Source: Trueperaceae bacterium (GTDB taxonomy: Bacteria; Deinococcota; Deinococci; Deinococcales; Trueperaceae). From it: a stretch of 48,186 bases of DNA. Below, piece by piece: positions 32,748 to 38,225 of the stretch (the stretch's first letter is position 1; each line of letters begins with the position of its first letter). The stretch lies in contig JAABTL010000021.1 in NCBI GenBank assembly GCA_011389865.1, forward strand, positions 1 through 48,186, in the 5' to 3' direction. The notes under the pieces are model-generated. The model was not told the DNA's origin. It saw only the letters and a program-made list of their open reading frames with translations, and searched no databases. Both the position numbers and the translations under genes were made by a program.

Positions 32748-34172
32748 TCAACCGATCCCCAGCGAGACGTACTTGGTCTCCAGGTACTCCTCGATGCCCC
32801 ACGGCCCGCCCTCGCGGCCGATGCCCGATGCCTTCACGCCGCCGAACGGCGCGTGCGCCACCGACGGCACACCGTCGTTGACGCCGATGAGACCGTACTC
32901 GAGGGCCTCGGCCACGCGGATGGCGCGGGCAAGGTCGCGCGTGTAGAGGTAGGCGGCGAGGCCGTACGGCGTGTCGTTGGCGCGCGCGATGGCCTCGGCC
33001 TCGGTGGAGAAGCGAAGAACGGGGGCGACCGGGCCGAACGTCTCCTCCTCGAGGATCTTCATCCCCGGTTCGACGCCGACGAGGAGCGTGGGTTCGTAGA
33101 ACAGCCCGTCGCCGCGTACCCCACCGGTGACGACCCGGGCGCCACGCGCGACCGCGTCGGCCACGTGATCCTCGACCTTGCGGACGCCGGGTTCGTCCAC
33201 CAGCGGACCCACGTCCGTGGTCTCCTCGAGCGGGTCCCCGAGTTGCAGGGCGCGCACGGCGCCCGTGAAGGCCTCCACGAAGGCGTCGTGGATCCCGTCT
33301 TGCACGTAGATGCGGTTGGTACAGACGCAGGTTTGCCCGGCGTTGCGGAACTTGCAGGCCGTGACCTCGCGTACCACGGTGTCGAGGTCGGCGTCGTCGA
33401 ACACGAGGTACGGGGCGTGACCGCCGAGTTCCAGCGACATGCGCTTCACGGTGTCCGCCGACTGCCGGTACAGGACCTGGCCGATCTCGGTCGAGCCGGT
33501 GAACGTGAGCTTGCGGATGCGCGGGTCATCCATCATGACGCTCGTGAGGGGTGCGGGCTTGAAGGCGGGCAGCACCTGCAGCGTGCCCGGCGGGCCCCCG
33601 GCCTCGACCCACAGGTCGGCGAGCCGGAGGGCGGTGAAGGGCGTCTGCTTGGCCGGCTTCACGATCATCGTGCAGCCGGCGGCCAGGGCCGGCGCGGCCT
33701 TGCGTGTGAGCATCGCCGCCGGGAAGTTCCAAGGCGTCACCGCGTAGCTCGGCCCCACCGGCTGGCGGATCGACATCAGCCGCTTGTGGGGCGTGTGGCT
33801 GGGGATCCAGGTGCCGTAGACGCGCTTGCCCTCCTCCGCGTACCACTCGACGAAGCTGGCGGCGTAGGCGGCCTCGCCGCGTGCCTCGCGCAGGGGCTTG
33901 CCCATCTCGCGCGTCATGAGACGACCGAGCTCGTCTTGGTGCGCCATGATCCCCTCGTACCAGCGGCGCAGCACCTTGGCCCGCTCGAACGGCGACGTCG
34001 AACGCCACGACTCGAACGCGTTCCAGGCGATGTCGATGGCGGTCCGTCCCTCGGCCTCGCCGCAGTCGGCGACCCGTCCGAGGACGGTCCCGGTGGCGGG
34101 TTCGGTCACCTCGAAGGTGGAGTCGGTGTCGTGCCAGGCGTCGGTGAGGTAGCGACCTTGGATGAGTTCCAT
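32748..34172 (-). CDS. NAD(P)-dependent succinate-semialdehyde dehydrogenase-type aldehyde dehydrogenase
   Basis: This 474-residue enzyme oxidises an aldehyde to the acid. The family catalytic Cys lies in NAGQTCVCTNRIYV, the general-base Glu in LELGGHAPYLVF, and the cofactor region in GSTEIGQVLYRQ. ITPWNFP-like VTPWNFPAAM is also present. The sequence resembles GabD/YneI-type succinate-semialdehyde dehydrogenases, but the substrate is inferred only. ATG 34172 follows TAGACT by 6 nt, so its mRNA is probably leaderless. A long hairpin covers the -35 region. The hypothetical gene follows downstream. Confidence 0.9.
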   Translation of the reverse strand: MELIQGRYLTDAWHDTDSTFEVTEPATGTVLGRVADCGEAEGRTAIDIAWNAFESWRSTSPFERAKVLRRWYEGIMAHQDELGRLMTREMGKPLREARGEAAYAASFVEWYAEEGKRVYGTWIPSHTPHKRLMSIRQPVGPSYAVTPWNFPAAMLTRKAAPALAAGCTMIVKPAKQTPFTALRLADLWVEAGGPPGTLQVLPAFKPAPLTSVMMDDPRIRKLTFTGSTEIGQVLYRQSADTVKRMSLELGGHAPYLVFDDADLDTVVREVTACKFRNAGQTCVCTNRIYVQDGIHDAFVEAFTGAVRALQLGDPLEETTDVGPLVDEPGVRKVEDHVADAVARGARVVTGGVRGDGLFYEPTLLVGVEPGMKILEEETFGPVAPVLRFSTEAEAIARANDTPYGLAAYLYTRDLARAIRVAEALEYGLIGVNDGVPSVAHAPFGGVKASGIGREGGPWGIEEYLETKYVSLGIG

Positions 34173-34178
34173 ACCGCC

Positions 34179-34184
34179 AGTCTA
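34179..34184 (-). promoter_or_regulatory. Leaderless-type -10 element (TAGACT) of the aldehyde dehydrogenase
   Basis: On the minus strand TAGACT is followed by 6 nt and then ATG 34172. The expected -35 region falls inside the left arm of the hairpin at 34198-34264. Confidence 0.5.
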
Positions 34185-34197
34185 CGGTGCGGGTGGG

Positions 34198-34264
34198 GTC
34201 GGGGCCCGCCTCGGGGGCCTGGAGTCACGTGACCGTGCCAACGGCCCCCGAGGCGGGCCCCGAC
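34198..34264. repeat. Long hairpin 1: 22-bp perfect stem with shared apex
   Basis: The arms 34198-34219 and 34243-34264 are perfectly complementary. The 23-nt apex (34220-34242) reads TGGAGTCACGT, GA, CCGTGCCAAC. Inside it TGG/CCA and CACG/CGTG can pair, leaving AGT and AC unpaired and TGAC at the tip. The same apex, inverted, caps hairpin 2 on an unrelated stem. Confidence 0.9.
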
Positions 34265-34419
34265 GCCACCGCCGCCGCTCGGTGGGGGTGTCGAGCGCGC
34301 ACCTGGCCCTCAGGTCACCACCCACGGGAGGGGGCCGTCGAGCGCATCCGTGCCACCGACCGACGTCGCCGTGCGCCGCGCCGGCGACCACCCACCACCA
34401 CCCACCGCCCGGGCGGCAG
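34265..34419. other. Non-coding spacer between the two hairpins
   Basis: No convincing gene is present. The sequence has a small hairpin (ACCTG/CAGGT around 34301-34315) and CCACC-rich tracts near 34388-34407. Small frames that cross it are GC-driven and interrupted by the hairpins. Confidence 0.5.
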
Positions 34420-34497
34420 GGGGTGGGGGCGCGCGTGTGCGCGGACCGTTGGCACGGAACGTGACTCCAGGTCCGCGCACACGCCCGCCCCCACCCC
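34420..34497 (-). terminator. Long hairpin 2: 28-bp stem with shared apex, downstream of the desaturase
   Basis: The arms 34420-34447 and 34470-34497 match at 27 of 28 positions. The 22-nt apex (34448-34469) on the minus strand reads TGGAGTCACGT, T, CCGTGCCAAC, the inverse of hairpin 1. It lies 8 bp after the desaturase stop codon, so it probably ends that transcript; no T-tract follows. Confidence 0.85.
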
Positions 34498-34505
34498 AAC
34501 GGCAG

Positions 34506-36005
34506 CTACGCGGGTCCGATGAGATCGTCCGCGATCTTCGACGACGAGAGCACGCCCGGCAGCCCGGCCCCGGGGTGGGTGCCGGCGCCGACCAGGTAGA
34601 GGTTGGGGACGTCCTGCGAGCGGTTGTGCGGGCGGAACCAGGCCGACTGGGTCAGGATCGGCTCGACGGAGAAGGCGGAGCCCTGGGCGGCCTGCAGCCG
34701 GTCGCGGAAGTAGCGCGGGTCGACGAACTTCTCGGTGACCAGGTTCGCCTGCAGGTCGGGGAGGTAGTGGTCCTCGAGGTGCTGCATGATCGTGTCGCGG
34801 TAGCTCTGCGCGTGCTGCTCCCAGGAGATGCCGGACTTGAGGTTGGGCACGGGGGAGAGCACGTAGAACGACTCGTGGCCCTCGGGGGCGATCGTCGGGT
34901 CCGTGATCGTGGGCATGTGCAGGTAGAGGCTGAAGTCGTCCGCCAGCCGGCCCTTGTTGTGGAAGATGTCGTCGAGCAGGCCCTTGTAGCGGGGCCCGAG
35001 CAGGATGTTGTGGTGCGCGAGTCGGCCCTCGTGGGCGTAGCGACGCTTGGTGCCGAAGTAGATGACGACCAGGCTCATCGCGTAGCGCGTGCGCTCCATC
35101 TTGCGGTCGGTCATCACCTTGCGGTACGTCGGGTCGATCAGCTTCGTGTAGGTGTGCGCGACGTCGGCGTTGGAGACCACCGCGTCGGCCGGCAGGACGC
35201 GGCCGTCGGCCAGCGCGACGCCGGTGGCGCGCGGCTTGCCGTCGGGGCCTTCCTCGACCAGGATCTTCTCGACCGGCGCGTTGAGCAGGACCTCGCCGCC
35301 GAGCTCCTCGATCAGCCGGCCGAAGGCCTCGACCAGCTTGCCGGTGCCGCCCATCGCGTACCACACGCCCCACTCGCGCTCGAGGTAGTGGATCATCGCG
35401 TAGATCGAGGTCGTGTCGAAGGGGTTCCCGCCGACGAGCAGCGGGTGGAAGCTGAACACCTGGCGCAGGAACGGGTCCTGCACGTAGTCGGAGACCAGCC
35501 GGTAGACGCTCTTGTACGACTGCAGCTTGATGAGGTCGGGCGCGACGCGCAGCATGTCGCCGACGGTGTGGAAGGGTTTGTCGGCCAGCTCCACGAAGCC
35601 CTTGTCGAAGATGCGCTTCGCCATGTGGACGAAGTTGAGGTAGCCGCGCTTGTCGGCGGGGTTGCGCTTGTCGATCTCCGAGAGGATGAACATCTCGTCG
35701 TCGTTGTAGTCGAAGGGGACGTGTTCGTGGTCGAAGATCCGATAGAACGGGTCGCACTTGCTGAACTCGACGTAGTCCTCGCGGCGCTTGCCGGCCTTGT
35801 TCCAGATGTCGTCGAACATCCACGGCGCCGTGATGATCGTGGGGCCCGCGTCGAACGCGAAGCCGTCCTGTTCGAACACGTAACCGCGTCCGCCGAGCTT
35901 GTCGAGCTGCTCGACCAAGGTGACCTGGTGCCCGCTGGCTGCGAGCCGCGCGGCGGCGCCGAGGCCGCCGAATCCCGCTCCGATGACGACGATGCGCTTC
36001 TTCAC
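34506..36005 (-). CDS. crtI: CrtI-family FAD-dependent desaturase (phytoene desaturase type)
   Basis: This 499-residue flavoprotein belongs to the CrtI family that dehydrogenates carotenoid precursors or related isoprenoids. The N-terminal FAD site is VVIGAGFGGLGAAARL and the next segment is FAFDAGPTIITAP, both typical. The C-terminal FAD segment reads YLVGAGTHPGAGLPGVLSSSKIADDL. I start at GTG 36005 because TACCCT lies 6 nt upstream and the FAD motif then begins at residue 5; an in-frame ATG at 36077 would add a Trp/Arg-rich leader. No crtB or other carotenoid gene is adjacent, so the exact substrate is open. Confidence 0.85.
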   Translation of the reverse strand: MKKRIVVIGAGFGGLGAAARLAASGHQVTLVEQLDKLGGRGYVFEQDGFAFDAGPTIITAPWMFDDIWNKAGKRREDYVEFSKCDPFYRIFDHEHVPFDYNDDEMFILSEIDKRNPADKRGYLNFVHMAKRIFDKGFVELADKPFHTVGDMLRVAPDLIKLQSYKSVYRLVSDYVQDPFLRQVFSFHPLLVGGNPFDTTSIYAMIHYLEREWGVWYAMGGTGKLVEAFGRLIEELGGEVLLNAPVEKILVEEGPDGKPRATGVALADGRVLPADAVVSNADVAHTYTKLIDPTYRKVMTDRKMERTRYAMSLVVIYFGTKRRYAHEGRLAHHNILLGPRYKGLLDDIFHNKGRLADDFSLYLHMPTITDPTIAPEGHESFYVLSPVPNLKSGISWEQHAQSYRDTIMQHLEDHYLPDLQANLVTEKFVDPRYFRDRLQAAQGSAFSVEPILTQSAWFRPHNRSQDVPNLYLVGAGTHPGAGLPGVLSSSKIADDLIGPA

Positions 36006-36011
36006 GCCGAC

Positions 36012-36017
36012 AGGGTA
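36012..36017 (-). promoter_or_regulatory. Leaderless-type -10 element (TACCCT) of the desaturase
   Basis: On the minus strand TACCCT is followed by 6 nt and then GTG 36005. Confidence 0.5.
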
Positions 36018-36095
36018 CCCGTCCCGTCGCCAGGACGTTTGGCTCTTCGCCCACGGTTGCCAACGGCTCGGGCGCATCGCGCCCGAGCCGCCCGG

Positions 36096-38225
36096 TCACC
36101 TGCCGCGGTCGGCGCGGTGTGCCGCAGCCTCGAACGTCTGCCCCAGCCGACCGAGCGCCCGGAGCGCGGCGTGATCGAGGTGGGTCGAGGCGTCGGGGTG
36201 CTCCTGACACAGCGCCGCCAGCGTGCCCAGCCAGCGCCCGTCGTGTCCCCACCAGACGGCCACCTCGTGGCGCACGCCCGTGATCCAGCCGCCCTTGGCC
36301 CCGACCACGAGGTCGTCGCCGGCGCGGCGCAGGAGGCCGTCGCGGAACGCGCTCGACCGCAGCGTCGCCGCCGCACGGGCGGTCGCGTCCTGGGGCAGCC
36401 ACCCCAGCTCGGGGCGGACCAGGGCGCTGGCGAGCAGGGCCGTCTCGGCCGCGGTCGTGCGCGCGCGCTCGCCCCGCCGCTGCGCCGCGGTCCAGCGGTC
36501 CTCGGTCACCTGCAGCGGACCGACGACGCGCGTGGACCTCAGGCCGTGGGCCTCGCCCCAGGCGTTGCTGCGCTCGCTGCCCAGGCGGGCCAAGACCACG
36601 TTGGTGGCGAGGTTGTCGGAGTGCGTGATCATCAGGGTGAGCAGGTCGCCCCAGGTGGGCGCGAGGCCCGGCGCCAGCAGCTGCAGCACGCCGCTGCCGG
36701 TCGCCAGGTCGTCGGCCGTGAGGGCGACGCGCTCGTCCCAACGCGGCGCGTCCACGGTCGGGTCGAGGGCCGCGCCGAGCAGCAGCAGCTTGATCAGCGA
36801 CGCCGCCGGCGCACCCGCGTCGGCCGCACGAGCGACCCGCGAGCCGTCGGCGAGTTCCGCGGCGAGCGACCAGCGGCCGGGTTCCTCCGCCAGCTCCGCG
36901 GCGAACGCCGCGGCCAGCCGTGCCCCCTGCGGCCCGTCGTGCCGCCAGGGCTCGTCGGACGCGTCGGCCGGTTCGGCCGCCATGGTCGCCTCGGTCACCG
37001 CGGCCGGCCCGGCAGAGTCGGTGACGGACCGCTCCCGCGCCCACAGCTCGGCGAGCGGCTCGGCCTCGCGCAGCAGCCACGCGCGCCCCCCTTGGAGGGC
37101 GACCTCGGCGACGCGCACGTGCGACGCGTACCACGAGCCCATCGTCCAGCCGTAGGCGCCCGCCTGGCCGACGGCGATGAGATCGCCGGGCGCGACGTCG
37201 CCCAGCGCGACGTCCTGCGCCAGCCGGTCGCCGTTCTCGCACAGCGGCCCGTCGACGTCGGTGGCGACGAGCGGACCCGGCGCGGTCTCGCCGGGCGCGC
37301 CGGCTTCGGCCGGGAGCCGCCGCACGGGGTGCTGGGCACCGTAGAGCGCCGGCCGCAGCAGGTCGGCCATGCCGGCGTCGGCGATCACGTGCCGACGCGG
37401 CCCCGACTTGACGTGTTGGACGCGGGTGAGCAGCGTTCCGGCGTCGGCGACCAGCGCGCGGCCGGGCTCGAGGAGCAGGCGCAGGCCGCGGCGTTCCAGC
37501 CACGGTCGCACCAGCGCCCGCAACCCGTCGAAGTCGTAGTCGGGCACGGCGAAGCCGCCGCCCAGATCGAGGAGACGGACCTCGGGGAAGGCGTCGAACA
37601 GCGGCTCGACCGCGGCGAGGACGTCCCGATGCATGCTCACGTCGCGCAGCTGGGAGCCGGCGTGCACGTGGAAGCCGGCGAGCACGCCGGCCGCGTCCAC
37701 CTCGCGCGCGAGCGCCAGCGCGGCCTCGGGCGTGACGCCGAACTTGCTGTCCTCGGCGCCGGTGGCCATGTGCGGGTGCGTGCGCGGGTCGAGCCGCGGG
37801 TTGACGCGCACGACGAAGCGGCTGCCGGGGGGCAGCCCGTGACGCCGCCAGGCGGCCCAGGTGCCCTCGCCGTCGAGGCTGACGAGGTCGGGTGGCGCCG
37901 CGCTGGCGAGGCGCCGCAGCGGCGCGTCGTGCGCCAGGCCGCCGACGAGGACGCGCGACGCGGGGATGCCCGCGCGCAGCGCGCGGGCGAGCTCGCCGAC
38001 GGTGATGACCTCCGCGCCGACGTCGAGGGCGGCGAGGTGGGCGAGGACGCCGGCCGACGGGTTGGCCTTGACGGCGAAGCGCAGGTCGACGTCCGGGAAG
38101 GCGTGGCGCAGTCGCGCCACCTCGCGCGTGACGGCGTCGAGGTCGTACGCGTACAGCGGCGTGCCGAAGCGGTGTGCCAGGTCGCGCAGGGCGGCGTCGG
38201 TGGGGGTGCTCGTCGCGGGGTCCAT
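36096..38225 (-). CDS. Fusion of diaminopimelate decarboxylase (LysA-type) and beta-lactamase-like serine hydrolase
   Basis: The 709-residue protein joins two domains. Residues 10-390 are a fold III PLP decarboxylase: PLP Lys53 in [16 protein letters not shown] (186-192), [12 protein letters not shown] (252-263) and active-site Cys329 in LCENGD, all LysA-like. After an Ala/Glu/Ser-rich linker (about 400-435), residues 440-700 form a class A beta-lactamase/DD-peptidase-like domain with SLIK (Ser476, Lys479), SDN (536-538) and KGG (644-646). The ExxLN of true class A beta-lactamases is not visible, so a cell-wall peptidase or amidase is more likely. No signal peptide is present. The SxYNxR region of LysA reads SWYASH, so another diamino acid may be the substrate. 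A one-base readthrough artefact is unlikely because the frame is continuous. Confidence 0.85.

Follow-up and report, generated by a model that had tools for sequence, protein, structure and literature searches.

A genus-restricted family of palindromic elements with a fixed apex and locus-specific stems in Trueperaceae

Background

Template switches are known to create and to maintain hairpins, and in doing so may retain or invert the loop (PMC8794818, PMC8604942). In RNA genes, intrastrand priming repairs the stem and keeps the loop (PMC8794818), in yeast the arms of inverted repeats are homogenised and the spacer between them is inverted (PMC8604942), and quasipalindrome correction has been described in E. 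coli (PMC7202029). The origin of long perfect stems and of the joint change of their arms is an old puzzle, for which template switching has been proposed mainly from isolated sites. Among dispersed palindromes the usual pattern is a conserved stem with a free loop. The double-hairpin elements of Allomyces mtDNA (the work of Paquin et al. 2000), to which we liken the hairpins described here, are reportedly also mobile, spacer-invading hairpins that are single or doubled. To our knowledge, there is no described bacterial family with a fixed apex and a free stem, and none was found in the literature covered, most subscription papers lying outside that coverage. The two hairpins analysed here (H1 and H2), which carry the same apex in opposite orientations on different stems, lie in a window of 48,186 nucleotides, the whole analysed stretch of contig JAABTL010000021.1 from a Trueperaceae bacterium (GCA_011389865.1).

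Genomes and searches

H1 and H2 lie on contig C13 of their own genome (G000; 3.05 Mb, 67 contigs). This genome and the four others of the genus (G001 to G004) all look like fragmented metagenome bins, one of them partly contaminated. The L17 ribosomal protein of the genus has its closest PDB match in the entry group of 1nkw (Deinococcus radiodurans), in keeping with phylum Deinococcota. The family was traced with the 316-bp region as DNA query, with a relaxed pattern and with a covariance model of apex and stem (R1). The model was built from 13 copies, which match it by construction, while the copies C16, C21, G001:C210, G003:C110 and G004:C97 as well as the degenerate ones on C11 were found by R1 itself.

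Results

The hairpin pair and its neighbouring genes

The locus contains the following features (coordinates of the window):

32748-34172, minus strand: aldehyde dehydrogenase gene (PF00171), the downstream neighbour
34179-34184, minus strand: -10 element TAGACT of the aldehyde dehydrogenase gene, assigned by eye and kept in hairpin-less relatives
34192-34219, plus strand: 5' arm of H1 (apex orientation +)
34220-34242, plus strand: apex of H1, TGGAGTCACGTGACCGTGCCAAC, with the inner mini-stem CACG/CGTG
34243-34270, plus strand: 3' arm of H1
34271-34419, strand not applicable: spacer separating H1 from H2
34420-34447, minus strand: 3' arm of H2 (apex orientation -)
34448-34469, minus strand: apex of H2, on this strand TGGAGTCACGTTCCGTGCCAAC
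34470-34497, minus strand: 5' arm of H2
34506-36077, minus strand: CrtI-type phytoene desaturase gene, the upstream neighbour

Both hairpins sit where the original prediction had placed them, H2 ending 8 nt from the crtI stop and H1 covering the -35 position of the aldehyde dehydrogenase gene. The stem of H1 measures 28 bp with a single G.G mismatch, the predicted 22 bp of it (34198-34219/34243-34264) being perfect, and that of H2 has 27 of 28 positions paired. The H2 loop (34448-34469) reads GTTGGCACGGAACGTGACTCCA and, once reverse-complemented to TGGAGTCACGTTCCGTGCCAAC, differs from the H1 loop only by T in place of GA, which bears out the claim of reverse-complementary apices. The further claim that the two stems are unrelated holds in so far as the arms differ, but they are not wholly unrelated, as G-rich starts and GGCC closings recur. 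RNA folding energies were better than those of shuffles by 8.5 sd for H1 and 8.0 sd for H2, and each loop is predicted to fold on itself. A structure-only scan covering 448 kb of the genome returned, at a minimum stem score of 20 and a minimum loop length of 15 nt, no hairpins besides H1 and H2. A scan of 34100-34600 for T-tailed terminators (loops of 3-8 nt only) found none, and by eye no T-run follows H1 or H2. Next to crtI, a 709-aa frame (36096-38225, minus strand) combines a PLP-dependent ornithine/DAP/arginine decarboxylase (both domains) with a C-terminal Beta-lactamase2 domain, which is either an unusual fusion or one frame holding two genes.

Copies and range of the family

At E<=0.01, R1 found 13 copies at seven loci of the own genome, distributed over the contigs as follows:

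C11: two intact and two degenerate copies
C13: H1 and H2
C7: two copies
C41: one intact copy and one cut by the contig end
C22: one copy
C16: one copy
C21: one copy cut by the contig end

The exact apex pattern is confined in this genome to H1 and H2, and relaxed forms occur elsewhere. The four other genomes of the genus gave 2-4 R1 matches each at E<=1, a number from which one weak match each was dropped in G002, G003 and G004; the matches at E>0.05 (C63, G002:C13, G003:C656, G004:C228) were rejected, as no long hairpin stands at the match. Run on control and sample DNA (848 kb), R1 recovered H1 and H2 only. A run over 111 genomes found no copy at E<=0.01 in the 106 other genomes of the order, under stricter filters that lost one known G003 copy and could also have lost diverged relatives. 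The apex alone was matched 70 times in 84,980 genomes, which is about chance level, and never on a long stem. Matches in viral contigs (3 + 1) were not on hairpins either, the sole one with closing pairs lying within a repetitive coding gene, and phage and plasmid records yielded no apex, only three weak partial matches. Apex patterns in G007 and G013 were set aside for not lying in hairpins.

Most copies are intergenic, on the start or stop side of genes, and the four double-hairpin loci of the own genome all have the order + then - (4/4). Two sites lie in open frames. The C21 copy stands inside the open E2 frame, near codon 85, where the protein is rich in Ala, Pro and Gly; the mraZ/rsmH copy stands, in G000 as in G001, in the open frame that extends rsmH at its 5' end, and it may belong to a leader because a downstream rsmH start is possible.

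The complementarity of the H1 and H2 loops, together with the constant order of double loci, would be expected if the two loops formed a dedicated loop-loop (kissing) pair in the crtI-aldehyde dehydrogenase transcript, as the original prediction had suggested. We consider this very improbable, given that at least two loci (rplQ/deoB, mraZ/rsmH) hold a single hairpin, that each loop is predicted to self-fold and that the apex pairs of C7 and C11 are imperfectly complementary.

Several copies were seen at contig ends (the end of G000:C21, the start of C41, the ends of G004:C134 and G001:C259). Short-read assembly therefore probably breaks at the hairpins, and the copy number may be underestimated. 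The same contig-end copies, in genomes that are all fragmented, are what a metagenome assembly artefact would produce, but five separate genomes carry hairpins at the same genes and many copies lie inside long contigs (C11 288 kb, C22 283 kb, C16 41 kb) with arms and flanks intact, so that we hold the probability of an artefact to be close to negligible.

Anatomy and covariation

The common apex has the form TGGAGYCA-(stem)-TGCCAAC or similar, on GC-rich stems of 23-29 bp. Read in apex orientation, a locus-specific stem, usually ending in ...GGCC, is followed by TGGAG-Y-CA-SS-(2-5 nt)-SS-TG-CC-AAC and then by GGCC...; most 5' arms start G-rich (GGTGGGGGCGGGG-like) and most close on the apex with GGCC. 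The inner apex stem covaries (CACG/CGTG, CACC/GGTG, CAGC/GCTG, CGGG/CCCG), and the conserved part is an internal loop, TGGA opposite AAC, beside a G-C pair and between two free helices.

Stem pairs vary on both sides in 15 of 16 cases. Across 17 copies, 18 of 21 pairs show double changes, 96.3% of the cells are paired, and both sides have changed in 92 cells. Shuffles reached 66% pairing and slid arms 36-44%, and no shuffle attained the observed level. Mismatches number 14 among 434 stem pairs, including three G.T and two A.C; the three G.T cells are all in the mraZ/rsmH pair, where they are G.U in the mRNA sense. Searches against Rfam gave sub-threshold matches only, mostly to microRNA precursors and of the chance-like kind expected for long hairpins, and a known Rfam family was rejected.

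The motif is a real, genus-restricted family of Trueperaceae with fast concerted stem turnover. A covariance-model search of the kind proposed in the original prediction has found further copies in the own genome and in the genus, and the 13 copies and their covariation support the recurring motif of conserved apex and covarying stem that had been claimed from a single pair.

Orthologous sites

The crtI/aldehyde dehydrogenase spacer measures 333 bp here and about 25-130 bp in relatives, the -10 region of the aldehyde dehydrogenase gene being conserved. The site is filled in G004:C134, where the H1 apex is 21/23 identical, a T-A stem pair has become G-C by a double change, and the sequence between the hairpins has 70% identity to that of the window, unlike at other double-hairpin loci. 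In G004:C296 an 85-bp spacer has no hairpins; the G004 bin (6% contamination) holds two versions of the locus, C134 with and C296 without them. In G003:C586 (L077), 3' of crtI at a contig end, a ~28-nt unit, CTCGGCGCGCCTTCTGCGCCGAGCGGGT, which forms a small hairpin by itself, is repeated in tandem, with two or more complete copies and a partial one.

Between the convergent genes rplQ and deoB, a hairpin is present in 5/5 genomes of the genus, with the apex + in G000, G001 and G002 and inverted in G003 and G004. The latter two share 19/20 apex positions and 7/16 of the inner arms, on both sides. G002 has two strain versions of this site, C38 being filled and C98 a bare palindrome, GCGGGGGCCGGCCCCCGC. 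The sister genera G018 and G019 carry ordinary short hairpins after rplQ.

The mraZ/rsmH hairpin is absent in G003, G004, G015 and the other displayed relatives, which places its gain in the lineage of G000 and G001. These two genomes have flanks of 96%/98% identity and agree at 21/21 positions of the apex and at 12/12 and 11/12 of the outer stem, while the arms of the inner ~14-16 bp match at only 7/16 and 8/16 positions with pairing intact. Single substitutions as frequent as those in the flanks cannot produce such a change; a source of the replaced inner stem was found nowhere else in the available DNA of the genus. Stems are maintained at orthologous sites and further copies of the apex exist, so that neither of the two outcomes named as refuting in the original prediction was observed.

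At the E2/uvrC and C41-gene sites, the hairpin is missing or a remnant in G001 (both sites) and in G002 (C41). The unoccupied sites C7b (against G001) and C41b (against G002) retain the gene-side (5') arm, with scores of 17/28 and 22/27 that 0/500 shuffles reached, and there neither the apex nor the other (3') arm was above chance. These one-armed sites could represent the state before a gain, or a loss by deletion of the apex and one arm; on the evidence of the site comparisons, some copies were gained or lost recently. In G003 and G004 (L313, L314), a second hairpin type stands upstream of uvrC, with the loop TAGGGGCGCTTCGCGCCCCACGC and with stems that differ and keep their pairing.

Such clean presence and absence among relatives, and the dispersed, mostly intergenic copies in + then - order, would suit a mobile element of the REP/BIME or MITE kind, in which a transposase acting in trans would move the entire hairpin and the stem differences would reflect the age of the copies. 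This is distinctly unlikely in our opinion, as orthologues have the same apex on different stems, the spacers of paired copies are unrelated, the copies are few and lack a GTAG/CGTC tag, and Y1_Tnp (PF01797) was not found in the genus (0/5 genomes, control genomes being positive in 5/14), contrary to the RAYT-like transposase suggested for carriers. A REP/BIME system with RAYT was rejected on the missing Y1_Tnp, on the lack of a constant GTAG/CGTC tag by the stems (by eye), on the non-conserved stems and on copy number, 13 copies in 3.05 Mb not being high even though the first-look filter may miss diverged ones. A MITE with the apices as TIRs (a 250-300 bp unit) was likewise rejected, the interiors of four own loci being unrelated and single-hairpin loci existing. 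The empty rplQ/deoB allele of G002 C98, viewed for a target-site duplication, is palindromic itself. The suggestion of a mobile motif that inserts at terminators retains the gain and loss of sites, and its link to terminator position holds at one site, rplQ/deoB; this site fits a transcript end between genes, the mraZ/rsmH and E2 copies do not.

A selected RNA element is possible, if doubtful: the transcribed hairpin would bind a protein with its apex internal loop or set the 3' end, with a role in non-canonical termination, 3'-end stabilisation or processing, and compensatory substitution would keep the stems. The rplQ/deoB hairpin in all five genomes, where G018 and G019 have ordinary short hairpins after rplQ, the TGGA/AAC loop between two covarying helices and the G.U sense of the mraZ/rsmH wobble cells agree with it. 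Yet wobble pairs are only 3/434, a T-tract is absent, inner arms were swapped as a block despite 96-98% identical flanks, several sites were gained or lost among close relatives, and copies stand in the E2 frame and the rsmH 5' frame, where a terminator would harm.

Discussion

Any explanation has to account for an apex that is kept and can be inverted and for arms that change jointly, even as blocks. In the reading that we prefer, and hold with about as much belief as doubt, H1 and H2 are copies of a palindromic element that is dispersed within one genus and whose stems would arise and be replaced through fold-back (template-switch) copying. The element would be a self-folding apex of ~20-24 nt on a stem of 23-29 bp, with the stem belonging to the locus and not to the family. 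During DNA synthesis, the nascent strand would pass one arm and the apex, fold back at the self-complementary core of the apex, which would be the fold-back seed, and copy the first arm into the second by an intrastrand template switch. One such event would give a perfect stem, later events would rewrite both arms jointly with the apex kept, and the same switch, made between strands, would invert the apex.

Two traits of template switching were found, namely multiple compensatory changes in both arms beyond the flank rate (mraZ/rsmH, G000 vs G001) and loop inversion among orthologues (rplQ/deoB). The block replacement of arms between 96-98% identical flanks, the scarcity of G.T pairs and the in-frame copies point to arm-matching DNA copying, with or without selection, and the few G.T pairs fit DNA copying better than slow RNA compensation. 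Selection on structure, as originally proposed, keeps the stem covariation on its side, but is not the sole reading, since block replacement and rare G.T pairs fit DNA copying. Stem rewriting and apex inversion are well supported by the comparison of orthologues, while the polymerase mechanism, the apex as fold-back seed and the means of spread are what we infer. The one-armed empty sites have the polarity expected were the 3' arm copied from the 5' arm. Against the fold-back reading, it explains the matched arms but not the origin of the new mraZ/rsmH inner sequence, and a conserved internal loop with covarying flanking helices is also expected where selection acts on an RNA or DNA structure that is bound.

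The lone resident arm at the empty sites of two relatives, in the same polarity, would also be seen if the apex were minimal (~22 nt), stem-less mobile DNA that joins a resident arm, the adjacent DNA then being copied back as the second arm. We think this rather unlikely; if true, apex insertion would lead to an inverted, not a direct, duplication of the target.

Comparison with known systems

Intrinsic (Rho-independent) terminators resemble the family as GC-rich hairpins after stop codons, including one convergent site, but the family has no T-tract, a structured loop of 20-24 nt whose sequence is common to all members, and copies upstream of promoters and in reading frames. REP/BIME/REPIN sequences with their RAYTs (PMC3733652, PMC3116915, PMC2817692) are likewise lineage-specific palindromes dispersed mostly between genes, many of them as inverted pairs. 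REPs differ in keeping the stem constant, in carrying a GTAG or CGTC tag and in their high copy number, whereas the Trueperaceae family has 13 copies with a fixed apex on a free stem. The repetitive hairpin-forming elements of sponge mtDNA (PMC2800124) are mobile and invade the spacers of close relatives, single or doubled, but their stems are conserved and their loops vary, the reverse of the Trueperaceae family, which in this respect inverts the usual pattern of dispersed palindromes. Template-switch hairpins (Monttinen and Loytynoja 2022, PMC8794818; PMC8604942; PMC7202029) are alike in perfect stems made in one step, concerted arms and a loop that is kept or inverted; they are known from single sites, where loops mostly span a few bases and arms are short, while here an apex of ~22 nt recurs on stems of 23-29 bp at many loci of one genus. 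With many independent stems on one apex in one genus, and close relatives that keep, invert or lose the apex and have the stem rewritten, the template-switch hypothesis can be tested directly, both on sequences and in the laboratory.
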